A model generated the notes under the pieces. It was given only the letters and a program-made list of their open reading frames with translations, made no database searches and was not told the DNA's origin. Below are positions 4,481 to 22,333 of a stretch of 64,000 bases of DNA, piece after piece. Numbering within the stretch: the stretch's first letter is position 1; each line of letters opens with the position of its first letter. The translations under genes were made by a program, and so were the position numbers. Source of the DNA: Modestobacter excelsi. Lineage in GTDB: Bacteria; Actinomycetota; Actinomycetes; Mycobacteriales; Geodermatophilaceae. The stretch is taken from NCBI RefSeq assembly GCF_005930495.1, contig NZ_SJEX01000004.1:1-64000 (forward strand). Direction: 5' to 3'.

Positions 4481-4659
4481 GGGCACCACTCTCCCACTGC
4501 TGCGCAGCGGCGTGCCGAGGGGTCGGCCGGAGGGGTGGAGACGAGGGCCAGCGGTGGGGGAGCAGTTCGCGTGAGAGGACGCAGCGTCCCTCCGAGGGGT
4601 GCACGCCGCTCCGTGACGCTGTGGGGGGTTGCGGCGAACGGCGGCGGGAGCTGGCGGCG

Positions 4660-5307
4660 TCAGATGCGGCCGGTCTCGTGGGCCCACATGGCGACCTCGA
4701 CGCGGTTTCGGGCGCCGAGTTTTCGCATGAGGCTGGCGAGGTGGGCTTTGACGGTGCTCGGGGTGATGTAGAGCTCGCTGGCGATCTCGTTGTTGGTGCG
4801 GCCCTGGGCTACAGGCACGAGGACTTCCTCCTCGCGGGCGGTGAGCGGTTCCATCGGCTGCCTCGGTGGTGAGGTCTGTGCGTGAGCGAACGCTGCGAGC
4901 AGTCGGACAGTCACGCTGGGTGCGATCAGTGCGTCTCCGTCGGCGGCGGCGTGGATGGCCTGGGTCAGCAGGGCGGGTCCGGCGTCCTTCAGCAGGAACC
5001 CGCGGGCGCCGGCTCTGAGCGCCCCGTGGACGTACTCGTCGAGGTCGAAGGTGGTGATGACCACGATCGGCAGGGGGTCGGTGACGTCGTGGCCGGCGAG
5101 GCGTCGGGTGGCTTCGATGCCGTCCATCAGCGGCATCCGGATGTCGAACAGGCCGACGTTGGGGCGCAGCTGGAGCGCCAGGCGGACTGCCTCGCGCCCG
5201 TCGGCGGCCGCGCCGACCACGTCGATGTCGGGTTGGGCGTCGAGCAGCATCGTCAGCCCGGTGCGCACGATGGGCTGGTCGTCGGCGATGAGGACCCTGA
5301 TGCTCAT
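4660..5307 (-). CDS. LuxR/NarL-type response regulator
   Basis: 215 residues. Receiver domain 1-120 with the acidic pair DD at 9-10, the phospho-acceptor Asp55 in LFDIRMP, Thr in VITTFD and Lys in FLLKDAG; then a LuxR-type helix-turn-helix (about 150-212) with [32 protein letters not shown]-binding partner of the adjacent kinase: its ATG overlaps the kinase stop codon (ATGA), so the two are translationally coupled. The target is unknown. The DUF6326 gene and the truncated ABC ATPase just beyond are plausible former targets, since NarL-type pairs often control a neighbouring ABC exporter. Confidence 0.9.
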
Positions 5308-6449
5308 CGTGGCGTGCCGGTTCGGGGCAGGACCGCCTCCACCCGCCAGCCCCGCTCGGCGGCGGGGCCTGCGTGGAAGGTGCCGCCGAGCAGTGAAGCG
5401 CGTTCCCGCATGCCCACCAGTCCGTAGCCCGCTGGGGCGCGGCCGCCAGCGGCGGAGCCGTCGTCGTCGATGGTGAGTCGTACCCGGTCGGCGTCGCCTG
5501 TGACGGCGACGGTGACCTGGGTCGCGTGGCGGGCGTGCCGTCGAGCGTTGGTGATGGACTCCTGGGCCAGGCGGTAGATCGCGGCCCCGACCGCCGGGCT
5601 GAGGTCGTCGAACTCGCCGGAGAGCGTCACCTCGACGCAGGGACGCGTCTGGCCATCGGTGGCGAGCTGCTCGACCTCGGCCACGCCGGGCTGCGGCGCG
5701 AACTCGGTGTCCTGTGTGGCGCGGAGCACGCCGACGATGGCGCGCAGCTCGGTGAGGGTGCGGGTCGCTGCGTCCTCGATGATGGCCAGGGCCTCGATGG
5801 CACGCTCGGGGTGGGAGGCCGCGATGGCACGTCCTGCTTGGGCCTGGATGGCGATGCCCGACACGTGGTGGGCGACGGTGTCGTGCAGCTCGCGCGCCAG
5901 CTGCTCGCGTTCGCGGGCCTTGGCCTGGTCGATGTCGCGGATGCGGAACTTCGTGCGATAGCGGATCGCGGCGCCGAGCGCGGCGGCGAACAGGAAGAAC
6001 CCGTAACCTCCGACCGTCTCCACCGAGCTCATGGGGTCGGCGACGCGGGTGATGGGCTGCCAGAGCAGGATGACGCCGAGGCCGATTGCGGCTTCCCGAC
6101 CGGAGCCCCACCGGAACAGGGCGTAGGCCAGGATCAGCGCCGCGGCGGTGCTGTTCAGCGGGGCGCCTTGCGACCCGGTGAGGATCCTGACGATGTCGAC
6201 GATCGTCAACGTGCCGAAGGAGATCGCAACCGCGACGAGCGGGTGCGTGCGTCGCCACAGCAGCGGCCCGATGACCGCGAGCGCATAGAGCAGCAGCACC
6301 GGGCGCGGCGCCAGGTCCTGGCGAAGCACCGCTTCCACCACGGACCAGCCGACCAGTGCTGCGACCAAGGCCCAGTCCCGCGGCCCCCGGCCCGGGGCAT
6401 TCGTGGGTCGAGGCTCGGCCCACAGCGCGTGGAGTGCGTTGGTGGCCAT
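5304..6449 (-). CDS. sensor histidine kinase, NarL/DesK-like (HisKA_3)
   Basis: 381 residues with five to six membrane helices in the first 170 residues and little extracytoplasmic sequence. A dimerisation segment follows with the phospho-acceptor His189 in [14 protein letters not shown], and an ATPase domain with NARRHA (N box), IDDDG and [11 protein letters not shown] (G box). The short-loop membrane sensor suggests it detects an envelope signal, as in bacitracin-type systems; the stimulus cannot be read from sequence. ATG start. The stop overlaps the start of the response-regulator gene by four bases. It is divergent from the DUF6326 gene across 161 bases. Confidence 0.9.
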
Positions 6450-6610
6450 CTGATCAGCCTAGGCAGCCCCCGTGATCGGGGTATCGGCCGAAAGTACAAG
6501 AGCTCGGCTGTGCCAACGGCCAGGTCGGATCAGGCTCCGGGGCTGATGTGCCCGCCGCCGCCATTCGTGAAGGTGGGAGCACCCACCCGATCAAGGCAAG
6601 GAGCACTGTG

Positions 6611-7108
6611 ATGAGAACGCCTCGATCCCACACCGCGCTGGAAGATCTGCGCATGCCCGTGCAGGCCGAACTCGCAGCAGCATGGACCAGCTGCATGTTC
6701 CTGTACATCTACGTCGACTACTTCCATCTGTACAAGCCCGGCGTCGTCGACGACATCCTGGCCGGCACCGTCTTCACGTTCGACATCAGCCCGACGATCC
6801 TGACCGTGATGCTCGCGTCCGTGGCGATCCCGGCCCTGATGGTGATGCTCTCCATGACGCTGCCCGCCCGGGTGAACCGCGCCACGAACCTCGTCGTTGC
6901 ATCGCTGTACATCCCCTACTCGATGTACAACGCGGCAGGGGAGTCCTGGGACTGGGCCTTCTTCTACGGCCTCTCCATCGGACTCGAGGTGCTGCTCCTG
7001 GCCTTCATCCTGCGCTCCGCCTGGACCTGGCCCCGCCGCACCGCATCACCGGCGACCCTGGCAGCCAGCCTCGACAGCGAGCCACTCCGCACGCCGCAGC
7101 AGGCCTGA
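6611..7108 (+). CDS. DUF6326 family four-helix membrane protein
   Basis: 165 residues, four predicted membrane helices, with the family pattern of tryptophan/tyrosine-rich first helix (LYIYVDYFHLY), an ILAGTVFTFDISP loop and a SWDWAFFYGLSIGLEVLLL last helix. Function unknown; the family is frequent in actinobacteria next to transcription regulators. ATG at 6611 is preceded by AGGAG at seven bases, which beats the upstream in-frame codons. It is divergent from the two-component system, so both may share regulatory DNA at 6450-6610. Confidence 0.75.
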   Translation: MRTPRSHTALEDLRMPVQAELAAAWTSCMFLYIYVDYFHLYKPGVVDDILAGTVFTFDISPTILTVMLASVAIPALMVMLSMTLPARVNRATNLVVASLYIPYSMYNAAGESWDWAFFYGLSIGLEVLLLAFILRSAWTWPRRTASPATLAASLDSEPLRTPQQA

Positions 7109-7227
7109 CCGTGCCCGCCCCGGGGCTCGACCGTCCTTCGCTCGCGCCACCCGCGGGCACGGTCACCTGCCTCGACGTCCGCTGCTGAGAACTCCGTCCC
7201 ACCCCATCCCCCAGAACGGTCCCGGTC

Positions 7228-7540
7228 GTGATCGAGGCACGCGAGCTCACCAGGCGCTACTGCGACACCACCGCCGTGCACTCCCTCAGCGTCACGATCG
7301 CGCCCGGGACCGTCACCGGGTTCCTCGGCCCGAACGGCGCTGGCAGGTCCACGACCATGCGCATGATCATGGGACTGGACCGGCCGACGTCGGGCACCGT
7401 CACCGTCGACGGCAAGCCCCACCGGCAGCACCGTGCCCCGCTACGGGAGGTCGGCGCCCTGCTGGAGGCACGTGCCGTGCACCCCGGCCGCAGCGCCCGC
7501 TCGCACGTGCGCTCCATGGCCGCCACCCACTACGACTTCG
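7228..7540 (+). pseudogene. ABC transporter ATP-binding protein, truncated (BcrA/CcmA-like)
   Basis: Only the first ~104 residues of an antibiotic-type ABC ATPase remain: MIEARELTRRY, a P-loop read as GPNGAGRST where the family has GPNGAGKST, then GLDRPTSGTVTVDGKP and LLEARAVHPGRSAR. Homology stops where the 94-bp direct repeat begins at 7538; the Q-loop, signature and Walker B are absent. The reading frame runs on into repeat DNA and ends near 7671 with unrelated residues. The Lys-to-Arg change at the ATP-binding lysine supports loss of function. It may once have worked with the divergent two-component system nearby. Truncation by element insertion or deletion is inferred. Confidence 0.78.
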
Positions 7541-7631
7541 GAGGGCCCGACCGAGCCCCCGACGGAGGTGGATCCGGAGGTCAGGCTGGTGGAGACGAGG
7601 GGAATCGAACCCCTAACCCCCGCCTTGCAAA
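7538..7631 (+). repeat. left copy of the element-flanking direct repeat (attL-like)
   Basis: Aligns without gaps to 22209-22302 at a constant offset of 14,671 bases. Positions 7589-7631 are identical to the tRNA-Ala 3' half (42 bases of tRNA plus one base). Positions 7538-7588 match the last ~50 coding bases of the integrase gene with a handful of mismatches. The peptide frame reads EPPTEVDPEVRLVETRGIEP, like the integrase tail. A simple attL would carry only the tRNA fragment, so the extra integrase tail marks a remnant of a second, related integration. Confidence 0.85.
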
Positions 7632-8423
7632 ACCGATCGAGGGGTGGTTTGGCGCAATGGGCTGTGACTGAAACCGGGACTTGACCAGCACTTCCGCCGA
7701 TGGCCGCTGTCGAGAGTCGTTGCCCAATTCTGGCCGTTCTGCGGACCATCTGCGGACTCTGTGCGGACTGCGGGTCGCCGCAGCAGCCGCCTCGCATGAA
7801 GCGCTCTGGGAAAGCACCCGCCCCACCCCCGCGAGCCTGCCCAACTGCGCCGGCCGCCGGAAGGGCGCTGCGCGTCCCTGCGGGATGGGCCTACGGCCCA
7901 CCCTTCCCCGGCGCTGCGCAGTCGGAGGAGAGCTGGTTATGGGAAAGCGGGCTGGACGCTCGGCTGACTGCCCGCGTCCTGCCTCGACGCGGTGGACCCG
8001 GCCTCACCGTCCAACTGTCGGCGGTGGCGAATTTTCGAACCAGAAACGGTACAGAGCTGGTCGATCCCCTCGGACTCGGCGAGCACGGTGCGCCACTGGG
8101 GGTTCTGCGCTTCGCTCCCATCTCCATGCACCACTGCACCACTGCACCCCGACTCGAGCGTCTGTCGCGGCGTAGCGAAGTCCGCTCGGGCGGACGGTGT
8201 AGAGGTGGAGACGCGGGAAGGTGGCGAGGGCGCGTGCGGCGTAACAGGTTCGAGGGGGCCGTTGCCGAGGCGTGGGACCTGCCGTCTCGAAGCCTCGTTG
8301 CTCCAGGTGGCTGAGAGATGGGGGTCTACGTCCGCCGCCGACAGGGGAAATGCGTTTGGGCTACGCACCGAGTTCCCTTGCCGGAAACGGCGCCCGGCGC
8401 GGCCGCCCGAGGAGTCGCGGCGG
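7632..8423. other. element left end, no recognisable gene
   Basis: About 790 bases between attL and the phosphoglucomutase gene. ORFs in this stretch have no recognisable product and no good ribosome site. The only structure I see is three direct copies of TGCGGAC near the left end and a short TGCACCAC repeat near 8132-8145. It may be attachment-site and control DNA or decayed sequence. Confidence 0.5.
7740..7768 (+). repeat. three TGCGGAC repeats, candidate integrase arm sites
   Basis: TGCGGAC occurs at 7740-7746, 7751-7757 and 7762-7768, an 11-base period. Two more copies lie at 22181-22187 and 22192-22198, also 11 bases apart, on the other side of the attachment core. In the excised circle these would flank the core on both sides, as integrase arm-type sites do. 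Binding is inferred. Confidence 0.5.
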
Positions 8424-10067
8424 CTATCCGCCGATCACCGACGACACGATGTCCTGCGCTTCCTTCTGGATCATCTTCAGGTGCTCTGGACCGAAAAAGC
8501 TTTCTGCGTAGATCTTGTAGACGTCTTCGGTGCCGGATGGCCGCGCGGCGAACCAGCCCGACTGGGTGGTCACCTTGAGCCCGCCGAGGGAGGCTCCATT
8601 TCCCGGCGCGCTGGTCATCCTTGCGGTGATCGGCTCCCCCGCGAGCTCGGTCGCGGTTACCTGCTCCGGTGACAACTTCCCGAGGACCGCTTTCTGCGCT
8701 CGGTCTGCCGGCGCGTCGATGCGTGCGTACGCCGGCTCGCCGAAACGGTCGGTGAGCCGGCGGTACAGCTCACCGGGCGAGCTGCCCGTAACTGCGGTGA
8801 TCTCGGCGGCCAGGAGGCACAGCAGCAGCCCGTCCTTGTCCGTTGTCCATGTCCTGCCGTCCCTGCGCAGGAACGACGCGCCCGCCGACTCCTCGCCGCC
8901 GAAGGCGACCGACCCGTCGAGGAGACCTGGCACGAACCACTTGAAGCCCACGGGGACCTCCAGCAGTGCGCGCGACAGCGCGGCGGCCACGCGATCGATC
9001 ATGGACGAGCTCACGAGCGTCTTGCCGACAGCAGCGGCTGGCGGCCAACCCTCCCGATGCCCGAACAGGTACTCGATCGCGACGCTGAGGTAGGCGTTGG
9101 GGGCGAGCAGTCCGGATTCGGGGGTCACGATGCCGTGCCGGTCCGCGTCGGCGTCGTTGCCGGTCGACACCTGGAACTCGGTCCGGCGCTCGATAAGCGA
9201 CGCCATGGCGTAGGGCGAACTGCAGTCCATGCGGATTTTGCCGTCCCAGTCCAGGGTCATGAAACGCCACGTCGGATCGACGAGCGGGTTGACCACCGTC
9301 AGGTCCAGGCGGTGCCGGTTCGCGATCTCCCCCCAGTAGTGCACGCTCGCGCCACCGAGCGGGTCAGCGCCGATACGCACGCCGGCCTGACGCACGGCGT
9401 CGAGGTCGAGGACCGAGGGCAGGTCGTCGACGTAGCCGGCGAGGAAGTCGTACGTGCCGGTCGTCTCAGCCGCACGCGCCCTGGTCAGTGGCACCCGGCG
9501 CACGCCCCGCAGACCTTCGCGGAGGTGCTGGTTGGCGGCGTCTTGAACGGCGGACGTGATGTCGCTCCCCGCCGGTCCGCCGTCCGGCGGGTTGTACTTG
9601 AACCCGCCGTCGGCCGGTGGATTGTGCGACGGCGTGATGACGATGCCGTCGGCCAGCCCGCCGGCCCGCTCCCGGTTGTAGGTGAGCACGGCGTGCGACA
9701 GCGCCGGGGTCGGCGTGTAGGCGTCGCGGCTGTCGACGAGGACGTAAACTCCGTTGCCGGCCAGCACCTCCAATGCGCTTGCCCATGCCGGTTCGGAGAG
9801 CGCATGGGTGTCCTTGGCGAGGAAGAGCGGGCCGTCCGTACCCGCTGCTCGCCGGAAGTCGCAGATCGCCTGGGTGGTCGCAGCGATGTGGTCGTCGTTG
9901 AAGGCTGCATGCAGGGACGAGCCGCGGTGCCCCGAGGTCCCAAAGCTCACCCGCTGCCCGGGGTCGCCTGGATCAGGATGCTCGGTGTAATACGCCGTCA
10001 CCAGTCGCGCGACGTCGACTAGATCATCCGGCCCGGCCTGAAGGCCCGCCCGCTCGGAGACTGCCAT
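8424..10067 (-). CDS. pgm: phosphoglucomutase, alpha-D-glucose phosphate-specific
   Basis: Interconverts glucose-6-phosphate and glucose-1-phosphate, the precursor step for ADP-glucose. 547 residues, the usual length of the E. coli Pgm-type enzyme. Landmarks: GTSGHRG near residue 50, the phosphoserine loop TPSHNPPADGG, the metal loop GNDADADRHG, the sugar-binding FGGEESAGAS and the phosphate-binding RPSGTED near the C-terminus; nothing is missing. ATG 10067 follows AGGAGG by six bases; the longer upstream frame is not conserved. Same strand as glgC with an 86-base gap, so probably co-transcribed. It has more A/T at third positions than the core genes nearby, as expected for island cargo. Confidence 0.94.
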   Translation of the reverse strand: MAVSERAGLQAGPDDLVDVARLVTAYYTEHPDPGDPGQRVSFGTSGHRGSSLHAAFNDDHIAATTQAICDFRRAAGTDGPLFLAKDTHALSEPAWASALEVLAGNGVYVLVDSRDAYTPTPALSHAVLTYNRERAGGLADGIVITPSHNPPADGGFKYNPPDGGPAGSDITSAVQDAANQHLREGLRGVRRVPLTRARAAETTGTYDFLAGYVDDLPSVLDLDAVRQAGVRIGADPLGGASVHYWGEIANRHRLDLTVVNPLVDPTWRFMTLDWDGKIRMDCSSPYAMASLIERRTEFQVSTGNDADADRHGIVTPESGLLAPNAYLSVAIEYLFGHREGWPPAAAVGKTLVSSSMIDRVAAALSRALLEVPVGFKWFVPGLLDGSVAFGGEESAGASFLRRDGRTWTTDKDGLLLCLLAAEITAVTGSSPGELYRRLTDRFGEPAYARIDAPADRAQKAVLGKLSPEQVTATELAGEPITARMTSAPGNGASLGGLKVTTQSGWFAARPSGTEDVYKIYAESFFGPEHLKMIQKEAQDIVSSVIGG

Positions 10068-10153
10068 TCCGGACCTCCTGGGATGCGATCGGTCACCGGT
10101 GTCGCGCGAGGTCTGCCGACGCTCGAGGGCTGGTGGCTCACGTCGGCGGAGGC

Positions 10154-11386
10154 TCAGGGCACGACCTGTTGGCCTTTGCCTATGACGACGATCCCGTTCT
10201 CCGACACCGTGTACAGCTCCCGGTCCCGGGCCAGGTCGACCCCGACCTTCGCGCCCTCGTGTATCACGACGTTCTTGTCCAGGATCGCGTTGCGCACGAT
10301 GGCGTTCCGCCCGACCTGAACACCGTGCATGAGCACCGAGGAGTCGACCTGGGCCCAGGAGTGCACGTGCGCTCCCGGGGACAGGACGGACCGGCTCACG
10401 GTGGAGCCCGACACGACGGAGCCAGGCGCCAGCAGGCACTCCATCGCACTGCCGACGCGGCCATGCGAGCCGTGCACAGTGCGTGCCGGAGGAAAGGTCT
10501 GGGGGTCGGTGAAGATCGGCCACTCCGGGTTGGCGAGGCTGAATTCGGGGTTGACGGAGATCAGGTCCATGTGGGCGTCGTAGTAGCTGTCCAGCGTCCC
10601 GACGTCGCGCCAGTACCCGCGCTCGCTTTCGCGCTGCCCGGGGACGTCGTTGTCGCGGAAGTCGTACACGGCCGCCTCGCCGCGCTCGACCAGCATGGGG
10701 ACGATGCTCCCGCCCATGTCGTGCTTGCTGTCGGGGTCCTGAGCATCCTGGGTTACCGCGTCCACGAGGACGCTGGTGGTGAACACGTAGTTGCCCATCG
10801 AGGCGAAGACCTCGTGCGGCGCGTCCGGCAGACCGTGTGCGTCGGCCGGCTTCTCCCGGAACGCCGAGATGCGGCGGCCGTCCGCGTCGACCTCGATGAC
10901 CCCGAACTGGTCGGCCATGGCCAGCGGCTGGCGGATGGCCGCCACCGTCACCCCCGCGCCGGACTCGATGTGCTGGTCCAGCATCTGCTGCGGGTCCATC
11001 CGGTAGATGTTGTCCGCCCCGAACACGACGACGTACTTAGGCTGCTCGTCGTTGATCAGGTTCATGCTCTGGTGGATGGCGTCGGCGGACCCGGCGAACC
11101 ACTGAGGGCCGAGCCGCTGTTGTGCGGGTACCGGCGCCACATAGCCGCCCAGCAGCGTCGACAGCCGCCACGTCTTGCTGATGTGCCGGTCCAGAGAGTG
11201 GCTCTTGTACTGGGTCAGTACCACCAGCTTGCGGTAGCCGCCGTTGACCAGGTTGGACAGGACGAAGTCGATCATTCGGTACATGCCGCCGAACGGCACC
11301 GCCGGCTTGGCCCGGTCGGCAGTCAACGGCATCAGCCGCTTGCCCTCGCCACCGGCCAGCACCATCGCGAGCACCTCAGTCGCCAC
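10154..11386 (-). CDS. glgC: glucose-1-phosphate adenylyltransferase (ADP-glucose pyrophosphorylase)
   Basis: Makes ADP-glucose from glucose-1-phosphate and ATP. 410 residues: nucleotidyltransferase domain with [11 protein letters not shown] (about 11-21), [27 protein letters not shown] and the glucose-1-phosphate-binding FREKPAD; then a left-handed beta-helix domain with hexapeptide-like repeats (about 290-400). GTG 11386 is chosen from the conserved N-terminus. The nearest AGGAGG is about 16 bases upstream, so initiation is not ideal. Divergent from the glgA-like gene across 72 bases, the same arrangement as Rv1212c/Rv1213 in Mycobacterium, which implies a shared control region. Confidence 0.95.
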
Positions 11387-11458
11387 ACGGCGGAACGTAG
11401 CCCTCCTACTATCGCCCGACCAGGGGCAATCAGGGCCGTGTGGCCCTAGGGTCGGCGC

Positions 11459-12697
11459 GTGACGCAGGACACACCGGCCGACGCCGGTTCCCAGACCACC
11501 GGTACCGGCCTGCGGGTCGACCTGCTGACCCGCGAGTACCCGCCGGAGGTGTACGGCGGTGCCGGGGTGCACGTGGAGTACCTAGCTCGTGAGCTCCGTC
11601 CACACGTAGACGTACGGGTGCACTGCTTCGGCGGTCCGCGGGGCGAGGCAGGGGTCACCTCGTACGCCGATCCACCCGGGCTCGACGGTGCCAACCCCGC
11701 ACTGCGCACCCTGGGCGTGGACCTCGAGATGGCGGCGGGCTGCGCGGGCACCGACGTGGTTCACAGCCATACCTGGTACGCGAACCTGGCCGGTCACGTG
11801 GCCAAGCTGCTGCACGGCGTCCCGCACGTCGTCTCCACGCACAGCCTCGAACCCCTACGACCCTGGAAGGCCGAGCAGCTCGGCGGTGGCTACGCACTGT
11901 CGTCCTGGGCGGAACGAACCGCACTGGAGGCCGCCGACGCCGTGATCGCGGTGTCGGCCGGGATGCGCCGCGACGTCCTGGCGGCCTACCCGGGAGTCGA
12001 CCCAGACCGCGTCACGGTGGTGCACAACGGCATCGACACGGCGGAGTACGCACCCGACCCGGACATCGACGTCCTGACCCGCCTGAGTATCGACCCCGAC
12101 CGACCCAGCGTGGTGTTCGTCGGCCGGATCACCCGCCAGAAGGGGCTCCCCTACCTGCTGCGGGCCGCAAGGGACCTGCCGGCGGACGCGCAGCTCGTCC
12201 TGCTCGCCGGCGCGCCCGACACCCCGGAGATCAGCGCCGAGGTGACGGCCTTGGTCGAGGAACTGCGCGGCATCCGGAACGGGGTGGTGTGGGTCGCCGA
12301 CATGCTGCCCAAGCCCGACGTCATCCAGGTCCTCAGCCACACGACCGTCTTCGTCTGCCCGTCGATCTACGAGCCAATGGGCATCGTCAACCTCGAGGCC
12401 ATGGCCTGCCGGGCCGCCGTCGTCGCCACGGCGACCGGTGGCATTCCCGAGGTCGTAGCCGACGGCGAGACGGGCCTGCTCGTGCCCATCGAGCAGGCGC
12501 CGGATGGCAGCGGCACACCCTCGGACCCGGACCGGTTCACCAGCGACCTCGCCGCGGCGATCACGCAGCTACTCGAGGACCCCTCCCGCGCGGCGGCGAT
12601 GGGAGAAGCCGGGCGACGCCGGGCGGTCGACCACTTCTCGTGGACGACGATCGCCGAGCGAACGGTCGAGCTGTACCGGTCCCTGCGGGCCGGCTGA
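11459..12697 (+). CDS. glgA: GT4-family glycogen/maltose-1-phosphate synthase
   Basis: 412-residue GT-B glycosyltransferase of the actinobacterial GlgA/GlgM group, using ADP-glucose for alpha-glucan or alpha-maltose-1-phosphate formation. Visible: the N-terminal [31 protein letters not shown], the donor-binding [10 protein letters not shown] and the C-terminal [13 protein letters not shown] with the EX7E glutamate. Its length and N-terminus match the actinobacterial type rather than E. coli GlgA. In Mycobacterium the homologue (Rv1212c) has been assigned as GlgM, so the exact acceptor is not decided here. GTG start. Divergent from glgC and convergent with the sugar kinase gene. Confidence 0.9.
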
Positions 12698-12731
12698 CCC
12701 ACCGACCAGCCGGAGGACAAAGGCGGCGCGG

Positions 12732-13697
12732 TCAGCCCGGACCGATGCCGGTCGACTGCCGTGCTGGCGGCCGAGCACCGCGCGCCGCCTCCACCTCCGC
12801 CCAGGTCGGCGGATCGGCCCCCGGACGCGAGCAGGTGATCGACGCGATGAGGCTGGCCTCATCCAGGATACTGATCAAGCTCGACTCGTCGATCCTCGCC
12901 AGCGCCTCCTTGCGAGCACCACCGATGAGATCCGCACGTCGCAGCCCGTCCAGGAGTCCAGCGCTGAAGGAATCACCCGCCCCCACGGTATCGACCAGGT
13001 CGATCCGGGTGGCCGGTCGGGTGAGCTCCAGGTGGGCCGTGACCGCGAAAACGCCCGCACCGCCCCGGGTGACGACGACCAAGGGCGCACCGAGCGCCAG
13101 CCAGTCCCTCGCCACGTCCTCGTCCGGGCGGTCGGGATACAGCCAGTGCAGGTCCTCGTCGCTGACCTTGACCACGTCCGACAGAGCCACGAGGTGCTCG
13201 ATCCCCGGCCTCGCCTCCTCCGGAGATCCCAGGAGGGCAGGGCGCACGTTGGGGTCGTAGGAGATCGTCACCCTCCCCCGCTCGCGCTCACGCTCCAGGA
13301 GATCCGTCACCTGGCCTGCGCCGGGCGCCAGTACGGTCGCCAAAGAGCCCGTGTGGACGCACCGGGTCTCGACCGGGAGCGGGGCCAGGTCACCGATGTC
13401 CCACTCGATGCGGAAGTCGTAGGCGGCGACCCCGGCGGCCAGGCTGGCCACGGCCAGGCTCGTCTTCGCGCCGTCGTCGCGCCCGCCGTCGACCCGGACA
13501 CCACTCGCCGTCAGGTGCGCGGCGACCATCTCCCCGAAGGCGTCCCGCCCGAGGCGCGTCATCAGGGCGACCTGATCCCCCAGGCGGGCGAGCCCCAGGG
13601 CGACGTTGGCTGGACTCCCGCCGGGGTGCGCAACCAGCGTTCGGCTGCCCCGTTGCCCGACTAGGTCGACGAGGGCTTCCCCGATCACCACGAACAT
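12732..13697 (-). CDS. PfkB-family sugar kinase (probable fructokinase)
   Basis: 321 residues of the ribokinase/PfkB fold. It opens MFVVIGEALVDLV, has the sugar-site glycines in HPGGSPANVALGLARLG, and the PfkB signature with catalytic Asp in DTVGAGDSFSAGLLDGL. Phosphorylates a free sugar with ATP; fructose is the likeliest substrate from overall similarity to bacterial fructokinases, but substrate prediction within the family is weak. It is followed by C-terminal low-complexity sequence. Downstream of the FucP-type permease on the same strand (67 bases), so uptake and phosphorylation are probably one unit. Confidence 0.85.
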   Translation of the reverse strand: MFVVIGEALVDLVGQRGSRTLVAHPGGSPANVALGLARLGDQVALMTRLGRDAFGEMVAAHLTASGVRVDGGRDDGAKTSLAVASLAAGVAAYDFRIEWDIGDLAPLPVETRCVHTGSLATVLAPGAGQVTDLLERERERGRVTISYDPNVRPALLGSPEEARPGIEHLVALSDVVKVSDEDLHWLYPDRPDEDVARDWLALGAPLVVVTRGGAGVFAVTAHLELTRPATRIDLVDTVGAGDSFSAGLLDGLRRADLIGGARKEALARIDESSLISILDEASLIASITCSRPGADPPTWAEVEAARGARPPARQSTGIGPG

Positions 13698-13764
13698 CCG
13701 CCTGCTCCTGTCGACGAGAACGTGTGCCTGACCGGAGGCCGGCGGGCGAGGGAGGCCAGCCCGG

Positions 13765-15105
13765 TCAGTGCGCGGCGCCCTCGGTCACGAGAGGGCCACC
13801 GTGCCGAGAGGACCGGAGGTCGAACAGCGCGTACGCCGCCACGACCGCGAGGCAGATGGCGGGGACCAGGAAACCGACGTTCGTGTCTGCATGATCCATG
13901 ACCAGGCCCATGACCGGGGTCACGAGCGCGCCTCCCAGGATGGCCATGACCAGACCCGCGGCACCAAACTTGGTGTCCGGGCCCAGTCCCTGCAGCGCCA
14001 CGCCGTAGATCGTCGGGAACATCAGCGACAGGCTCAGCGAGATGCCGACGACGGCGAGCAGGCCGAGCATGTTCGGCGAGAACACGGCCACCAGGCAGAG
14101 CACGACCCCGAGCCCCGCCATGGCGAGGAGCAGCCTCGTCGGCCGGATGATCCCCAGCAGGTACGTCATGACGAAGCGTGAGACGAGGAAGAGGATCAGG
14201 CTGGCTTGCAGGAACCACCCTGAGTTGTCGGTGGAGATGCCCGCGACGTCCTGGGCGTACTGGATGGTGAACGACCACGCGCAGACCTGGGCACCGACAT
14301 TGGCGAACTGTGCGACCACCCCGAAGCGGTAGTGGCGGTTGTGCCACAGGCGGCTCAACGCCCCGCCCGACGACTGCTCCAGCCCGAAGTGGGCGTGCTC
14401 GTCGGGCGTGGAGATCTTCCGGAAGGCGATGAGCAGCCAGATGAGCGCTAGCGCGCAGGCGATCCCGACGTAGGGCCCGAGCACCAGGGACAGGTCCTGT
14501 TCCTGGGCACGTTCGAGCTGTTGCGCCGTCATGGAGGCCTTCTCCGCCTCCGACGTGATGTTGGGCAAGATGAGCACGGCCCCCAGCAGGACGCCGATGT
14601 TCGCACCCACCGGGTTGAACGCCTGGGCGAGGTTCAGCCGCTGCGTCGCGCTGATCTCCGGGCCCATCGCGATCACGAACGGGTTGGCCGAGGTCTCCAG
14701 GATGGACAACCCCGCAGCGAGCACGAACAGCGCGACGAGGAAAAACCCGTAGGCGAGCAGCTTGCTCGCTGGGATGAAGAGCAACCCGCCGACCGTGGCC
14801 AGCCCCAGTCCGGTCAGCACACCGGTCTTGTAGCCGAACCGCCGGTTGATGAGGGCGGCGGGGATGGCCAGTGCGAAGTACGCGCCGTAGTAGGCGAACT
14901 GCACCAACGCGGACTGGAAGTTCGACATCGTGAAGATGTGCCGGAACACGCCCACGAGGACGTCCGTGAGGTTCGCCGCGGAACCCCAGGCAGCGAAGCA
15001 GGCAACAAGCAGGACGAACGGAACGGCGAAGCCCGGATAGACCAGCCCCGCCTTGGCCGGGCCTCCGACGTTCGGCTGCTGCTGGACTTCGGACGGTCGG
15101 GCCAT
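13765..15105 (-). CDS. sugar:proton symporter, FucP/GluP-type MFS permease
   Basis: 446 residues, 12 predicted membrane helices. Family markers: FAAWGSAANLTDVLV in helix 1, AYYGAYFALAIPAAL in helix 2, the RRFGYKTG loop between helices 2 and 3, and LETSANPFVIAMG plus AQAFNPVGANIG in helices 4-5, which form the sugar path in E. coli FucP. L-fucose, glucose or galactose are known family substrates; fructose would suit the adjacent kinase but is not proven. ATG 15105 lies eight bases after GAGGGG and is preferred to the GTG nine bases upstream. A perfect CRP-type operator lies about 40 bases upstream. Confidence 0.88.
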   Translation of the reverse strand: MARPSEVQQQPNVGGPAKAGLVYPGFAVPFVLLVACFAAWGSAANLTDVLVGVFRHIFTMSNFQSALVQFAYYGAYFALAIPAALINRRFGYKTGVLTGLGLATVGGLLFIPASKLLAYGFFLVALFVLAAGLSILETSANPFVIAMGPEISATQRLNLAQAFNPVGANIGVLLGAVLILPNITSEAEKASMTAQQLERAQEQDLSLVLGPYVGIACALALIWLLIAFRKISTPDEHAHFGLEQSSGGALSRLWHNRHYRFGVVAQFANVGAQVCAWSFTIQYAQDVAGISTDNSGWFLQASLILFLVSRFVMTYLLGIIRPTRLLLAMAGLGVVLCLVAVFSPNMLGLLAVVGISLSLSLMFPTIYGVALQGLGPDTKFGAAGLVMAILGGALVTPVMGLVMDHADTNVGFLVPAICLAVVAAYALFDLRSSRHGGPLVTEGAAH

Positions 15106-15142
15106 AGAGTCCACCCCTCACCGACGTGGGTCAAAGAGTCTT

Positions 15143-15158
15143 TGTGACCGGTGTCACA
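15143..15158. promoter_or_regulatory. CRP-family operator TGTGA-N6-TCACA
   Basis: TGTGACCGGTGTCACA matches the CRP/cAMP-receptor consensus exactly in both half-sites. It ends the spacer between the FucP-type permease (start 15105, minus strand) and the small monooxygenase-fold gene (stop 15235). A second imperfect inverted repeat, with AAAGA-G-TCTTT at its core, covers 15129-15149 next to it. Control of sugar uptake by a CRP-like protein is inferred. Confidence 0.6.
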
Positions 15159-15234
15159 GCCCGCGAAGGGAGACTAGCGGGCAGTCCCACCACATTCCAC
15201 CCGCCCCCAGCGCCCGTCTGCAGCCGCGGAGCCG

Positions 15235-15537
15235 CTACCTCTCGTCCATCAGGCGCAGGTCCGACGGTTCGCGGAGCAGGTCCTCGAGAATGCGGTTGCC
15301 CTCGGTGTTGTAGGGCTGGCGCATGTGCTCGTCCCAGGCGGCACGGGAACGGAACATCTCCAGCATCACCCAGTTGTCCGGGTCGTCCTGCGGCTGCACG
15401 AGGTGCATGAAAACGCAGCCGGGCTCCCTGAGGGTCTGCCGGCGCATGGACTGCAGTTGCTCCTCGGCCTCGGCACGCTTGTCCTCCCGGGGCTTGATGG
15501 TGACGACGAGGAACAGCGCGCGGTCCTGTTCAGTCAT
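15235..15537 (-). CDS. antibiotic biosynthesis monooxygenase (ABM)-fold protein
   Basis: 100 residues of the small dimeric ferredoxin-like ABM/YgiN fold: an N-terminal strand LFLVVTIKPRED, a helix with EAEEQLQSMRRQTLREPGC, then HLVQPQDDPDNWVMLEMFRSRAAWDEHM. Family members include quinol monooxygenases and heme-degrading enzymes, but many are uncharacterised and no cofactor or substrate can be read here. ATG 15537 follows AGGAA by seven bases. It precedes the permease-kinase pair on the same strand, with the CRP-type site between, so a link to oxidative or carbon stress is possible. Confidence 0.8.
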   Translation of the reverse strand: MTEQDRALFLVVTIKPREDKRAEAEEQLQSMRRQTLREPGCVFMHLVQPQDDPDNWVMLEMFRSRAAWDEHMRQPYNTEGNRILEDLLREPSDLRLMDER

Positions 15538-15728
15538 GGGCGCGTTCCTACACCCGGGCCGAGCCCTGTGGCAGGGTGCGAGGCGTGGTCGGGACCGGGG
15601 CGGCTCGAGGTCGTCCAGCCCGGGCTGCACCCGTTCTCCCGGCCCGCGATGAGCGGTACGGTTTCGCCGTTGGATCCCCTGGCGCCGACCCAGGCGCACC
15701 AGGTGGCCCGGTTCGTCCGGAGGAGACC

Positions 15729-16190
15729 ATGTCCCGCTACCTGGTCGTGGCGAACCAGTCGCTCGACAGCGACGAGCTCATGGAGCTCATCCGTGAGCGC
15801 GTGGCCGCAGGGCCCGCCGAGTTTTGGCTCGTGGTGCCGGCGACGCCGGTGAAGGACCTCGCGTCCAACGCCATGCCAATCCCGATGCCCGTCATGGGTG
15901 GCACCCCGACCTTGCCTGCTCCGCCGAGTGAGGCGCGGAGGATGGCCCAGGCCAAGCTGGACGCCGCCGTACAAAAGCTGACCGCCGCGGAGGTACGCGC
16001 GAGCGGCACGGTGGGTGACCCCGATCCCCTGCGGGCGGTCGAGGAGGCCACGGCCGCCGGCGAGTTCGACGAGATCATCGTGTCGACGCTCCCGGCCCGA
16101 TTGTCCCGCTGGCTGCACCAGGACCTGCCCGCTCGGCTGGAGCAGAAGTTCCACCTGCCGGTCACCCACGTGCCCGCCAGGGACATGTGA
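15729..16190 (+). CDS. universal-stress-like / uncharacterised alpha-beta protein
   Basis: 153 residues starting with a hydrophobic beta strand (RYLVVANQSL), then alternating helices and strands (EFWLVVPATPV; EFDEIIVSTLPARLSRWLHQDL), ending FHLPVTHVPA. The strand-helix order and the IIVSTLP segment recall UspA-type Rossmann-like domains, but the ATP-binding G-2x-G-9x-G(S/T) signature is absent, so this is a weak family call. ATG 15729 follows GGAGG closely. Island cargo, divergent from the ABM-fold gene. Confidence 0.6.
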   Translation: MSRYLVVANQSLDSDELMELIRERVAAGPAEFWLVVPATPVKDLASNAMPIPMPVMGGTPTLPAPPSEARRMAQAKLDAAVQKLTAAEVRASGTVGDPDPLRAVEEATAAGEFDEIIVSTLPARLSRWLHQDLPARLEQKFHLPVTHVPARDM

Positions 16191-16345
16191 GCCCTCGCGG
16201 ACCACCCGCCTGGTCACCACCGGCCGCATCTGCCTTCCACTCTCGGGCGTGCGCGACGTCACGCGGACGACTGGAACAGTGCACGGGCCTTCATAGCTAT
16301 CCGTGGTGTCACTGATGGAACACACGGAGAAGAGGTGCCAGCACC

Positions 16346-16507: not shown

Positions 16508-17815
16508 CTCACCGGCCCGCCAGCCGGGCCGAGAATTCCCCTCGCAGCTCTCCTCGACGACGCCGTCGCGGAGAGCTGTTCCCGTTCCAGCGCACGCTCC
16601 CCCGGCTCCCTCTCCGTGATCCGCGTACCGCGCGCGTGGCTCATGACAGATGCAGTCGGATCCGGTGGGCTGTGCACCAAGTCGCCCCTTGGACACACCA
16701 TCGCCCCGGGCCTCTGCCACGGCCACGTCAAAGTCGGTAGTCGACTGGCTGACCTGCCGCTGCCTCGGTGATCATGCTGCGCGAGGGCGTTGCTAATTGC
16801 GGTCGGGTTCCAGGCGGCGTCTCGTTGAGCGGCGGCGATGTTGGTGTGCCTGGCCAGGCGGAAATGCCCGCAGAGACCGCCCGCCTACGTCAGCCCACCG
16901 GGCCACGCAACGGGCCGAACAAGATTCCGGTCCAACACAGGCCCGTGAACAAGTTGACCTGCACCGGCGCGTCAGCGCCCCGGGCACAAGCCCGGCATGT
17001 CCGCCCTGGTCAGGCACTCAGAAGCGCGGGGTGACAGCGGCAGCGCGCCCAAGCCGATGCCGCCCGGTGACCACGGGCGCACTCGTACCCGCCGCCGGCC
17101 CAAAACGGAGCCGGCGCTTCGCGGGTGCGGCGTCTGAAGTCATCTCCTCCCCCGATATGACCGATGGGCGTCCGGAGGCCGTCTACCAGGACACAGACCC
17201 ACGCGCTCACAGCCGCAATCAAGGGCACCCGAGAACCCCGCGCCATACACCTCAACCGGCTCACCTGCACTTATTCGAAACGGCGTTGCCGGACGACCAC
17301 AGCATTCTCATCCCCGAGGCCAGCGATCCAAGGTCGCGAGCCGATACACCTCATGCGCCCCGGGCAAGCGGGGTGGTCTCTTGGCATGGTGAGTGCCACC
17401 GGGACTGCACAATCGGCCTGACCAGCAGCCGGCATTGTTTCCGCGGGACTGACAATCAGAGCGACGGCCGATGACCGACCTCCGCAGCGTCGGGCTCGCG
17501 AGTCCCCCCGTAAGCGCCTGCGTCAGGTCCGACACCTCCTCCAGGCTCTACCAGGGCTTTCAAGATCACGAGACATCGCACCTCCCGCATGCCGGACAAG
17601 TCGATCCGTAACAGTCGACAAGTTTCAAGACTCGGTGAACACGGCTTCTGTGATCCGCAACGACCGTCCCTTGTTGACTGCCGGCAAACCCTTCACTCCA
17701 GACGGCACGCATGCTACCAATGTAGGTAGTTCGGGCCCCGCTTTGCGGGGCCCGTTGCGATTGCAGGGGTGACGTGTTGGTCATTGTCGGGCGGTGTTGG
17801 TAATTGCATGGCGGA
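16508..17815. other. 1.3-kb stretch without recognisable gene inside the island
   Basis: Composition is less GC-biased than the surrounding coding DNA and in-frame stops are frequent. ORFs on both strands here lack codon bias, ribosome sites and familiar motifs. It separates the carbohydrate cargo from the mobility module. Its right end holds two inverted repeats just before the relaxase gene. Confidence 0.5.
17714..17754. promoter_or_regulatory. paired inverted repeats before the relaxase: oriT or terminator candidate
   Basis: First repeat CTACC-N6-GGTAG at 17714-17729; second a perfect 10-bp stem with a TTT loop, arms 17732-17741 and 17745-17754. It lies 62 bases upstream of the MobF relaxase start. 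Paired hairpins near a relaxase gene are usual for oriT, but the GC-rich second hairpin could equally be a terminator. Confidence 0.4.
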
Positions 17816-20604
17816 ATGAAGGTGTACGCCGGTGCGGCGGCCGTTGCCCGCCGATATGTGGAGGCTGGTCGCGGCCGGGCCGATGACTACTACTTGGCCG
17901 AGGACACTGGTATCGCGCGCCGCTTCGCGGCCGCCGCTGGTCGGGTGGAGGAACTGCCTCCGCTGTCCGGTGATGGCTACGAGGCGTGGGTAGCCGGCCT
18001 GGACCCCGAGACCGCGGTGTCGCGGGGGCGACTGCGGGACGACGAGCGGGCCGTGCGGTTCGTCGAGGTTGTGGTCAACGGCCCGAAGTCCTGGTCGCTG
18101 GCTGCGGCGCTCCACCCAGAGATTGCCGAGGCCTACGACGCCGCGCAGGACCGTGCCGCCGGTCAGGTCATCGGCTGGCTGTCCGGGCATGCGACGACCC
18201 GGGTGGGCCCCCGGGGCGGCCAGGTGCAGGTGCTGGTCGAAACACTGGAGGCGGTGACGGTGCGGCACTACACCTCCCGGGGCGGCGATCCGCACCGGCA
18301 TCTGCACTTACAGATCAATGCCCGGGTGCTGGCCGCCGAGAAGTGGCGCGGTCTGCACACCGTCGGTGTCCGGGACTCCCTTGCCGCGGTCAACGGGATC
18401 GGTCATGCCGCGGTCGTCACCGACCCAGACTTTCGGGCTGCTCTGGCCGCCCACGGCTACACCGTGGACGCGACTGGAGAGATACCGGAGCTGGCCGGCT
18501 ACGTCGGTCCCTTCAGCGCCCGGGCGGCGCAAATCGGGCGCCATCGGGACCGCTACGAACGGGAGTGGACGCAGGCGCACCCGGGTCAGCACCCGGGACC
18601 GGCACTGCGGCGGGCCTGGGACGCGCGAGCTTGGGCCGACGGCCGCCCGGACAAGGTCACCCCGCAACCGGGCGAGGACATCACGGCCGGGTGGCTGGCC
18701 GAACTCGCCGCCCTCGGCCACCGCGACCCCGACGGCCCGGTCGAGCTGCGGGCCGCCCCGGTCGGGGCGCTCGACCGCGACGCCGTGCCGAGCGCATCCT
18801 CATCCGGCTGGCCGCGGTCCGCTCCGCCTGGAACGCAGCCGACCTCCGCGGCGAGGCCGAGCGGCTGATCGCCGCCGACGGCATCGTGGCCGAGGCCGCA
18901 GTCCGCACGGAGTTGGCCGAAGACCTCACCGCCCGCGCCCTGGCGCGCTGCGTCCCGCTGCTGCAGGGCGACGGGGTGCCCGAGCACATCCGGTTCTGGA
19001 CCTCGCGGGCGGTGTTGGGCGTCGAGGCGGACCTGATCAGCCGGTTCGCCGCCCGCTGCGGCCAGCCGCGCCACGAGGCCGCGCAGCTGGAGCCGCTGCC
19101 CAGGGGCGTGCTCCGGGGGCTGGATTCCCGTCAGGCCTCGATGGTCGCGGTCCTGGCCGGCGACCGGCGGCTGGTGGTGGTCCAGGGCGCGGCCGGCGCG
19201 GGCAAGACGGTCACGCTGGCCGCCACCCGCCACCTGCTCGAGCGGCAGGGGCGGCGACTGGTGGTGGTCACCCCGACGCTGAAGGCGGCCAAGGTCGCGC
19301 GTGCGGAGGTCGGTGCGGCAGCCGGGTCGGCGGCGTCTCTGGCCTTCGCCTACGGCTGGCGCTGGGATGAGCACAGCCACTGGACCCGACTCGCCGTCGG
19401 CGACCAGGATTTGATCAGCGGCCGGGCCTACACCGGGCCGGATGAGAGGAACCGGCTGCGGCCCGGGGATCTGCTGGTGATCGACGAGGCCGGCATGCTC
19501 GATCAGGACACCGCGCGCGCGCTGCTCACCGTCGCCGACGAGTGCCAGGCGCGCCTGGCCCTTCTCGGCGACAGCCACCAACTCGCCGCCGTCGGCCGCG
19601 GCGGCGTCCTCGACCTCGCCGCCGGCGCTGCCGACCCGGGCGCCTGCCTGACCCTGGAGTCGGTGCACCGCTTCACCCGCACGGACTCCACCGCCCGGAC
19701 CGTTCCGGACCGGGAGTACGCCGCGCTGACCCTGGCGATGCGGCGGGGTGACAACCCGGGCGCGGTCTTCGATGCCCTGCACGCCGGCGGCCGGATCCGC
19801 CTGCACCCCGACCCCGGGGCGCTGCAGGACGCGCTGGCCGCGACCGTCGCCGACGCCGGCCGGGTAGCCGACATCGCCGTGGTGGCGGACACTCGCGAGC
19901 AGGTCGGCGAGCTCAACGCAGCGATCCGGAGCCGGCTGGTCGCCGACGGCCGGGTCGACGACACGACCGTCGTGATCACGCGGGCGGGGCAGCGGATCGG
20001 CGCCGGCGATCGGATTACCACCCGCCGCAACGATCGCGGCCTGGACGTGGCCAACCGGGACACCTGGACCGTCACCGCGGTGGGCCGGCGCGGTAGCGTG
20101 CTGGTCACCCCCACATCGCCGCCCGTTGGCATGCCGGGCGGCGATGTCACCCCCACCGGTGCGGACGTCCGCGTGCTGCCCGCCGGCTACGTCGCCGAGC
20201 AGGTGGAGCTGGCCTACGCCAGCACCGTGTACGGGGTGCAGGGAGAGACCGTCAGCGCGGCCCACGTGGTGATCGGGGATCGGACCGGTGCCGCCGCGGC
20301 CTACGTCGGCATGACCCGCGGCAGGGCGGGCAACACCGCTCACCTCATCGCAGCCGAGTTGGCCGAGGCCCGGGAGCAGTGGATCACCGTCTTCGGCCGC
20401 AACCGGGCCGACCTCGGCCCCGGCCACGCTGCCGAGCTCGCCGCTCGAGAAGCCGCCCGCTACGCCCGTTCGCAACCGCTCGACCGCCCCGCACCGACGC
20501 CTGGGTGGCCGGCTGCCCCGGCATCGGGCGTTCCCCGGCCCGAGGCGGAGCGTCGGAGACCGTCCAGCACCCGCGGTGGCACCACCCCGGGCATTCGGCG
20601 ATGA
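17816..20604 (+). pseudogene. MobF-family relaxase-helicase (TraA/TrwC-like), frameshifted
   Basis: Conjugative relaxase that would nick oriT through tyrosine and unwind the strand. First part (17816 to about 18787): relaxase domain with the tyrosine pair in DDYYLAED (residues 25-26), NGPKSWSLAAA and the three-histidine metal motif PHRHLHLQINA. Second part, in the next frame to 20604: TrwC/RecD-like helicase with Walker A GAAGAGKT, Walker B LLVIDEAGML, and the C-terminal YASTVYGVQGET and TRGRAGN motifs. The first frame runs out at 18868. Adding one G in GCCGTGCCGAG near 18787 restores a continuous protein of about 930 residues (DAVAERILIRL). Genuine mutation, sequencing error or programmed shift cannot be separated here. 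Confidence 0.85.
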
Positions 20605-20756
20605 TCGCGGGCCGGCGCCCGTGACGGCGGACGACGGACGCGGGGAACGACTGGAGGTTCCCTGCAGCGTGCGGTGGTCGGCTGTCAGCGTCAGCTCCGG
20701 ATCGGCGCCTGCTCCCGTGACGGAGCACAGCTCACCCGACCAGACCGGAGTCCTCC

Positions 20757-20981: not shown

Positions 20982-21104
20982 GCGGGCCCGCGTTCACATC
21001 CGTCCACAGATGCGTCGGGATCCGCTGACAGAACCGCATATGGGCGGCACGGTGGCATACGGGGCGCTGCCGTCGCCGGCCCGGCAATGACGAGGAGGTG
21101 GTCG

Positions 21105-22322
21105 GTGGTGGCGTCGATCGCGCGCAGACCTGACGGTACGTACCGGCCGCGGTACCGGGACGAGCAGGGCAAGGAGCACGCTCGCCACTTCAAGCGGAAA
21201 GTCGATGCCCAGCGGTGGCTCGACGAGGTGACCGCGGCCGTGCAGACCGGCACCTACGTCGACCCGAAGCGGGCCCGGCTGACCGTGGGCGAGTTGGCCC
21301 CCATCTGGCTGGCGGGGAAGATCAACCTCAAGCCCACCTCTCGCGCCCGCTACGCCGACGTCTTAAGGACGCACGTCATGCCGCGCTGGGGGGAGGTGCC
21401 GCTGATCCGGGTGACCTTCGGCGACGTCCAGGCCTGGCTGTCCGAGCTTTCCGCCGCGGGTCTGGCCGGCGCCTCGGTCCGTAAGGCGCAGGGCGTCCTG
21501 TCCGGCATCCTGGGGCTCGCCGTCCGGGACCGGCGGCTGGCGGTCAACCCCGCGCTGGGGGTGGCTCTGCCCCCGCTGGGGCAGCAGCGCCGGCGGTATC
21601 TCACCGCGGAGCAGCTCGAGGCCCTCGCCGACGCCGCCGGTCCCGGCCGGGTCGCGGTCTTGGTGCTCGGCTACTGCGGACTGCGCTGGTCGGAGCTGGC
21701 CGCGCTGCGGGTGCGGAACTTCGACCTGCTGCGCCGACGGGTCCTGATTGAGGAGGCGGTCACCGAGGTCGACGGCAGGACGCTCGCTTGGGGTACCCCG
21801 AAGACCCATGCGCGCCGCTCGGTTCCCCTGCCGCGGTTCCTCGTCGAGGAGCTCGCCCGCACGGTGGTGATCCGGTCCTCGGGCGAGTTGGCTTTCCCGT
21901 CACCACAGGGGGCGGTGCTGCGAAACCGCAACGCCCGTTCGGCGTGGTTCGACGCGGCCGCCGAGGCCATCGGGGAGCGCGGTCTCACCCCGCACGAGCT
22001 GCGGCACACCGCCGCCTCCTTGGCGATCAAGGCCGGCGCCAACGTCAAGGCGGTGCAGCGGATGCTCGGGCACGCCTCGGCGGCCATGACCCTGGACCGC
22101 TATGCCGACCTGTTCGACGACGACCTGGACGACGTGGCCGACCGGCTGGACGCCCTGCGGGCCGCATCCCGCGGACGAGTTGCGGACTTTTTGCGGACTG
22201 AGACCCCGTCGGAGGGCTCGCCCGAGCCCCCGACGGAGGTGAATCCGGAGGTCAGAGGAGTGGAGACGAGGGGAATCGAACCCCTAACCCCCGCCTTGCA
22301 AAGGCGGTGCTCTGCCAATTGA
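21105..22322 (+). CDS. int: tyrosine recombinase / integrase
   Basis: Site-specific recombinase of the island. About 405 residues: an N-terminal AP2-like arm-binding segment (DGTYRPRYRDEQGKEH), a SAM-like core-binding domain (LTVGELAPIWL, VRKAQGVLSGIL) and a catalytic domain with Arg in YCGLRWSELAAL, His-x-x-Arg in HELRHTAAS, His in LGHASAAMT and the nucleophile Tyr in LDRYADLF. GTG 21105 sits six bases after AGGAGG; an ATG at 21087 precedes that Shine-Dalgarno and is less likely. The last ~20 codons overlap the tRNA-Ala 3' end, so the tail is an att-site read-through rather than a conserved domain. Confidence 0.93.
   Translation: MVASIARRPDGTYRPRYRDEQGKEHARHFKRKVDAQRWLDEVTAAVQTGTYVDPKRARLTVGELAPIWLAGKINLKPTSRARYADVLRTHVMPRWGEVPLIRVTFGDVQAWLSELSAAGLAGASVRKAQGVLSGILGLAVRDRRLAVNPALGVALPPLGQQRRRYLTAEQLEALADAAGPGRVAVLVLGYCGLRWSELAALRVRNFDLLRRRVLIEEAVTEVDGRTLAWGTPKTHARRSVPLPRFLVEELARTVVIRSSGELAFPSPQGAVLRNRNARSAWFDAAAEAIGERGLTPHELRHTAASLAIKAGANVKAVQRMLGHASAAMTLDRYADLFDDDLDDVADRLDALRAASRGRVADFLRTETPSEGSPEPPTEVNPEVRGVETRGIEPLTPALQRRCSAN
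22181..22198 (+). repeat. two TGCGGAC repeats, candidate integrase arm sites (right)
   Basis: Copies at 22181-22187 and 22192-22198, inside the 3' part of the integrase gene and 60-80 bases from the attachment core. They match the three copies near the left end and share their 11-base spacing. Confidence 0.5.
22209..22302 (+). repeat. right copy of the element-flanking direct repeat (attR-like)
   Basis: Partner of 7538-7631. Contains the end of the integrase gene and, from 22261, the 3' half of tRNA-Ala up to the anticodon loop. Strand exchange probably occurs in the anticodon-loop to T-arm part that is shared exactly (22260-22302). Confidence 0.85.
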
Positions 22323-22333
22323 GCTACGTCCCC
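22261..22333 (-). tRNA. tRNA-Ala (anticodon TGC)
   Basis: 73 bases, 5' end at 22333. Acceptor GGGGACG pairs with CGTCTCC including the G3:U70 wobble that identifies alanine tRNA. D arm GCTC/GAGC; anticodon stem CCGCC/GGCGG around loop TTTGCAA; T loop TTCGATT. CCA is not encoded. It is the integration target of the island: the integrase stop lies within it and a copy of its 3' half is at 7590-7631. Confidence 0.95.

Follow-up and report, generated by a model that had tools for sequence, protein, structure and literature searches.

A probably relocated, mosaic operon for sugar uptake and glycogen precursors on an integrated tRNA-Ala(TGC) element of Modestobacter excelsi

Genes for sugar import and for glycogen precursors normally occupy fixed places in the chromosome. 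Mobile copies of glgC are already known: PMC13060141 reports that a Klebsiella lineage acquired a glgBXCAP operon, and a GlgC relative is encoded in 495 plasmid records, 348 of them from Klebsiella and 361 typed as conjugative. A GlgM relative is found in 12 actinobacterial plasmid records, all typed non-mobilizable, one of which (Tsukamurella) has glgC adjoining. Here we analyze a 64,000-nucleotide stretch of Modestobacter excelsi (positions 1 to 64,000 of NZ_SJEX01000004.1, called the window), which has a G+C content of 73% and belongs to contig C113 (143,458 bases) of a 5.26-Mb draft genome. It contains an integrated element of 14.67 kb (7589-22259), lying between copies of the 3' end of tRNA-Ala(TGC), which we name the glg element after its cargo. 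Weighing all data together, we consider it probable that a mosaic accessory operon was moved onto an integrated element with a MobF relaxase and a tyrosine integrase, where it is now the cargo, while the chromosomal copy decayed.

Integrative and mobilizable elements (IMEs) at tRNA genes, as described in PMC5704250, share with the glg element the tyrosine integrase, the excisionase-like protein, the relaxase gene, the attachment (att) site in the tRNA 3' end and an adjacent relic. What sets the glg element apart is its broken relaxase frame, a hotspot at gyrA/tRNA-Ala used within one bacterial family, and a cargo concerned with carbon storage. The pgm-glgC-glgA cluster of Micromonospora has the same three-gene layout as the island, in 10 of 11 Micromonosporaceae loci (L024-L034) and in the nearest named relatives. 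Island proteins are 76-79% (Pgm), 66-73% (GlgC) and 78-83% (GlgA) identical to those of the ten loci, whose flanks, however, as far as covered, gave no FucP, PfkB, ABM or Usp match (38% identity, 70 residues). The operon Usp-ABM-FucP-PfkB-glgC of the family genomes G092, G087 and G042 has the same genes in the same order as the island, but it lacks a glgM or pgm match, is chromosomal and lies off the element. The enterobacterial plasmid GlgC proteins among those listed are only about 42% identical and reside on plasmids or megareplicons instead of an integrated element.

The literature searched, in which subscription titles are mostly uncovered, yielded no paper that deals with this element family or with glg genes as cargo of an integrated actinobacterial element. 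As far as that literature shows, the element family, the hotspot and the evidence for displacement of a host operon are new. The old locus, an empty site, sister elements and donor-like relatives are all available, which makes this a traceable case of a metabolic operon that leaves its chromosomal place and becomes mobile cargo. Two questions become open to testing, namely when accessory metabolic operons turn into element-borne ones and whether their hosts come to depend on the element.

The glg element and its boundaries

The features of the element are as follows (model scores in bits, with the family cut-off in brackets where given).

7589..7631, no strand: left attachment site (attL), tRNA-Ala 3' text and then the left end of the element
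7632..8229, no strand: conserved left end of the element, with only a decayed piece of the sisters' small left-end gene
8424..10067, minus strand: pgm, phosphoglucomutase, second copy; TIGR01132, 906 bits (778)
10154..11365, minus strand: glgC, glucose-1-phosphate adenylyltransferase, second copy; NF002023, 650 bits (458)
11459..12697, plus strand: glgM/glgA-type GT4 transferase, second copy; TIGR02149, 587 bits (302)
12732..13697, minus strand: PfkB fructokinase-like kinase; PF00294, 131 bits (25.8)
13765..15114, minus strand: FucP-type sugar-proton symporter of the major facilitator superfamily (MFS); PF07690, 57 bits (33.4)
15235..15537, minus strand: ABM-domain (dimeric alpha/beta barrel) protein; PF03992, 66 bits
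15729..16190, plus strand: USP-like protein of 153 amino acids (aa), named by eye and conserved beside the operon in relatives
17804..20604, plus strand: MobF (TrwC-type) relaxase-helicase; TrwC PF08751, 167 bits, and AAA_30, 135 bits
20757..20981, plus strand: excisionase-like HTH_17 protein; PF12728, 42 bits
21087..22322, plus strand: tyrosine integrase; PF00589, 84 bits; no internal stop
22260..22333, minus strand: tRNA-Ala(TGC), the target gene, still whole, with the right attachment site (attR) in its 3' half

A sequence-only reading of this DNA had placed a phosphoglucomutase, GlgC, a GlgA/GlgM-type transferase, a PfkB kinase and a FucP-type permease between attachment sites, as cargo of a mobile element. 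All five are present where it located them and score well above their family cut-offs. A 94-nt direct repeat, 93% identical (7538-7631 and 22209-22302), flanks the block, and its right copy overlaps tRNA-Ala, containing the 3' half of that gene and the end of the integrase gene. The element combines a site-specific integrase with attL and attR at its target gene, as IMEs do. The extent of pgm had to be corrected: the gene starts near 10067 instead of 10523, since the long open reading frame (ORF) matches TIGR01132 only from residue 153 onwards. We rejected an extra N-terminal domain of 150 residues, since this extension matches no family and overlaps glgC in a different frame. The cargo further includes the ABM-domain and USP-like genes, the latter without a Pfam match up to 0.01.

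The empty site of genome G085 matches the joined flanks of the window in 576 of 604 columns, which defines an insert of 17,725 bp. This insert has two parts, namely a relic (4535-7588) and the glg element. The 96.9% match to the empty site breaks off at about 4535-4547, which is the outermost boundary on the left. The left repeat 7538-7631 was therefore rejected as the outer edge of the inserted DNA; it is an internal boundary with the relic of an older element.

Related elements support the reading as cargo. Eighteen of the 112 family genomes, our own included, contain a near full-length integrase of at least 79% identity, and we collected 19 integrase loci outside our genome (17 of those and two fragmentary ones; genes of relatives were called with a simple script based on codon usage). 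The integrase adjoins tRNA-Ala(TGC) in 18 loci, and the remaining one is at a contig end. Ten loci show all of attL, relaxase, excisionase and integrase, and in each of these 39-41 nt of the tRNA 3' text precede a left end that is homologous to window 7588-8229 or to its first part (73-83% DNA identity); in four sisters (L161, L169, L170, L175) this homology ends at 7950 or 8081. The ends and the mobility genes are common to all ten, while the cargo differs, in agreement with the cargo assignment. Indeed, none of the 19 loci gave a match to the island Pgm, GlgC, GlgM, PfkB or FucP (30% identity, E 1e-5), although only the ten and an eleventh locus are seen whole; this eleventh, in G104, has an att copy and no relaxase match.

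The proposal that the island is mobilisable has to be qualified. Excision by the integrase, whose frame is open, would be possible. The relaxase frame, however, is broken near 18.8 kb: both halves share one open frame in all 13 relatives that show them (in two the start is cut by a contig end), whereas they are in different frames in the window. Self-mobilisation is thus doubtful, and because the element's own relaxase reads broken, transfer would require a relaxase in trans. The best plasmid relatives of this relaxase carry a MobF annotation. No mating apparatus was noticed among the ORFs of 7589-22259, although no search was aimed at one. By the same frame test, stops occur in 5 of the 19 other integrases, and the family-wide integrase search flags a stop in one more, G009.

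Origin of the cargo

The host has a native divergent glgM-glgC pair on contig C131 and a native pgm at C113:94254-95888, so that the suspected duplication of a host pathway applies to these three genes. Native-type GlgM (E 1e-150) is present in 51 of 57 family genomes, and island-type GlgM (at least 85% identity) in 5 of 112; five more matches of 61-65% lie in two other genera. Among the 69 rows of the GlgM tree, drawn from 119 usable matches, the five island-type rows form one clade (support 100) inside the Micromonosporaceae set (92), apart from the native clade (100). The GlgC tree (48 rows) agrees with it (100), with the Micromonosporaceae joined at 88. The island Pgm is 66% identical to the host copy and nearest to Micromonospora, at up to 79%; in a tree of 20 rows, where the sole family row is our genome's native copy, it groups with Micromonospora (99) on a long branch. 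Island and native copies thus fall into different clades, and by tree position the second copies on the island (glgM, glgC and pgm) are Micromonosporaceae-like in descent. The island glgM has its closer counterparts in G049/G054 and its more distant ones in G094/G095. Along window 10154-12697 the balance of identity between these two pairs of genomes changes near 11.3 kb, which probably marks a point of recombination between glgC and glgM.

The uptake module has another distribution. PfkB matches (E 1e-60) were obtained in 15 of the 112 family genomes, 13 at 78% identity or more and two at 44%; ten PfkB loci were inspected, our own included, and eight wider loci were fetched. Our genome gave one PfkB match at this threshold and one FucP match (E 1e-90). 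The operon Usp-ABM-FucP-PfkB-glgC is chromosomal in G092, G087 and G042, and in G087 it lies at 2.44 Mb, with the tRNA site at about 17-36 kb of the same contig. G021 has PfkB-glgC with a permease relative (75%) about 4 kb away. G049 and G054 have the island gene order including glgM, without an intact pgm. In G095 (contig C298), G033 and G053, Usp-ABM-FucP-PfkB is followed by long HAD-like and trehalose-phosphatase-like genes, and in G058 PfkB stands beside another transporter and a kinase, with a HAD-like gene further along. By Pfam, the G033 genes (L248:9302-13329) are a HAD-GH65 fusion of 1077 aa and a trehalose-phosphatase, a trehalose variant of the operon; those of G095 and G053 were judged by eye. 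On a second G095 contig (C5), glgC and glgM form a different cluster, together with two ROK kinases and another sugar transporter, and G094 is similar as far as visible.

A probable former chromosomal place of the operon can be recognized in our genome. Contig C97 is 91-94% identical in DNA to G092/G087 in blocks that flank their operon on both sides. It retains only about 200 nt of the glgC 3' end, and the locus now has a histone-deacetylase-like gene and an enoyl-CoA hydratase gene. The island glgC and FucP genes are sisters of the G092/G087 copies (98 and 97 SH-aLRT support); the island GlgC is 94% identical to that of G092, which is of the same genus. Their DNA identity to G092/G087 is mostly 89-94%, and 81-86% in the end windows, with 93-95% as the core yardstick. 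This near-core identity, together with the grouping, leads us to conclude that at least the island glgC and the permease come from the host genus. By gene content, the part comprising uptake, kinase and glgC is not the added capacity that the sequence-only reading had considered, since it is a family operon that is chromosomal in same-genus relatives and a relic here. That reading had also named an outcome that would speak against cargo, namely island copies branching with the host lineage's only copies at the same location in relatives that lack the integrase. The glgC and permease genes do branch with host-genus copies, but these lie at another location.

We therefore favor the relocated mosaic, in which a same-genus core for uptake, kinase and glgC would be combined with a glgM-glgC-pgm block of Micromonosporaceae-like descent, and in which the operon would now be found on the element only, the chromosomal copy having decayed to a glgC fragment. 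As to the course of events, we offer tentatively that the resident operon and an incoming glgM-bearing operon recombined onto the element, that the chromosomal copy then decayed, and that dependence of the host stabilizes an element whose relaxase is dying. It is rather unlikely, in our estimate, that the whole operon was instead acquired from a G049/G054-like donor of another genus and that the recipient lost its chromosomal operon independently, before or afterwards. Such an acquisition would fit the island GlgM, which is 92% identical to that of G049/G054 at a synonymous divergence (dS) of 0.33 while core DNA is 76-80% identical to G054, and also the gene order shared with both genomes and the affinity of the C97 relic to their glgC; it does not fit the grouping of glgC and permease with G092/G087. 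The branching of some island genes with the host genus might even suggest ordinary chromosome of the lineage that lies beside an integrase by chance. This is highly improbable, as conserved element ends enclose the block, a cyclophilin match overlaps tRNA-Ala or lies at most 320 nt away in 9 of the 11 same-genus loci fetched for the site, the operon is kept elsewhere in G092 and G087, and G085 has the empty site.

Several observations nevertheless weigh against the relocated mosaic and the role we assign to it. This cargo was seen on this element in only one of the 112 genomes, with 9 of the 19 other integrase loci not seen whole. The glgC of G049/G054 (85%) is slightly closer to the C97 relic than are the island copy (82%) and the glgC of G092/G087 (81-82%), so that the direct donor may have been another site, and we doubt on these identities that the operon was captured directly from the relic. 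The trees of PfkB and Usp assign no clear position to the island copies, and by sequence identity the island PfkB is closer to G054 than to same-genus copies. Moreover, the break in the relaxase frame could be an assembly error. The kinase scores below the curated fructokinase cut-off (NF006957, 136 bits versus 450), and the identity of the imported sugar and the benefit to the host are deduced from sequence only.

The expected pathway

Comparisons of the island GlgM, GlgC, PfkB, FucP, ABM and Usp with their counterparts (15 comparisons, Pgm left out) gave ratios of nonsynonymous to synonymous divergence (dN/dS) of 0.10-0.31, and the cargo is therefore under purifying selection. The best solved relative of the permease is FucP (3o7q, 310 bits); over residues 28-433 of the comparison it has D and E at the places of Asp46 and Glu135, which we take to be the essential acidic residues of FucP. 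Because the nearest solved relatives of the kinase are PfkB fructokinases (best 7fca, 219 bits), it may work like a fructokinase. The transferase matches alpha-maltose-1-phosphate synthase 6tvp with 477 bits over residues 16-410, the next solved structure reaching 97 bits, and is a GT4-type homologue of mycobacterial GlgM. The genome also has glgE, at one locus (PF11896). According to PMC7137382, this GT4 enzyme is present in Gram-positives with glgE, with the GlgM precedent in mycobacteria.

In the pathway we propose, the symporter would import a hexose, probably fructose, with protons, and PfkB would yield the hexose-6-phosphate. The presumed host Pgi and the island Pgm would then give glucose-1-phosphate, which GlgC would convert to ADP-glucose. 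From ADP-glucose and glucose-1-phosphate GlgM would form maltose-1-phosphate, and host GlgE would polymerize it to an alpha-glucan. The genes had been read as leading from glucose-6-phosphate to an alpha-glucan; since the transferase is GlgM-like, the expected product is maltose-1-phosphate and not the glucan directly. The 6tvp match, the glgE locus and the precedent described in PMC7137382 make the predicted route from hexose to maltose-1-phosphate likely. Whatever its origin, the operon might serve an osmolyte or trehalose role instead of storage, maltose-1-phosphate or glucan being turned into trehalose for desiccation tolerance. The trehalose variant in G033, and by likeness in G095 and G053, speaks for this possibility, which we regard as doubtful because the island has glgM and glgC and no trehalose gene was recognized on it.

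The permease search across the class found 8 of 394 genomes, our own included. In one of them, G322, which belongs to another bacterial family, an ABM gene also lies beside the FucP-type permease (L229:6547-6882); the six others were seen mostly with short flanks. This second adjacency hints that the ABM-fold protein serves the sugar, and as a guess it might be a mutarotase.

The gyrA/tRNA-Ala hotspot and its older insertions

Close integrases (E 1e-110) were found in 14 of 397 genomes sampled across the order, all in the family (f1) of our genome, which is counted among them. Integrases of this type thus appear confined to one bacterial family, with the site beside gyrA as their hotspot. Selected proteins of the sister cargo, not all, were tested, and matches were obtained for 6 of 10 in one set and 6 of 10 in another:

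G009 (L175:6450-9904): Gabija-like pair GajA and GajB
G016: Eco57I-type methylase
G088: another type II methylase
G059: cytosine methylase with Vsr domain, and a helicase resembling defence-system helicases
G026: cadmium transporter
G051: MFS transporter
G054: rhodanese

Because the sisters exchange their cargo, we regard the tRNA-Ala site as a hotspot and the window cargo as its metabolic variant; one mobility module thus carries phage defence, metal handling or carbon storage. Near attL, locus L162 has small genes of 72 aa and of about 122 aa or longer (6921-7715), found by likeness also in L165-L168 and L174; the 72-aa gene is present in L169 too. The L162 copies of both proteins have no Pfam match. 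Of the larger gene only a decayed piece remains in the window, at about 7937-8368.

Directly left of the glg element lie the remains of an older one:

4535..7588, no strand: relic, about 3 kb long, of an older element that belongs to the same family, with short outer att text at 4535-4547
within 4535..7588, no strand: response regulator, histidine kinase, DUF6326 protein and truncated ABC ATPase
about 7538-7588, no strand: stretch resembling an integrase 3' end, which terminates the relic

Window 6653-7533 is 87.5% identical to DNA inside the G048 element (L174), and the series of response regulator, histidine kinase and DUF6326 is also found in the G027 element (L163), at 52-73% protein identity. 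The relic beside the glg element is an accretion of the kind described for IMEs in PMC5704250. Finally, G092 and G087, the other two of the 11 same-genus loci, have 2-3 kb of DNA at the tRNA-Ala site (L180, L182). In G092 this DNA includes a 102-nt match to the integrase 3' end (86%), and in both genomes it is probably a decayed element in a close relative.

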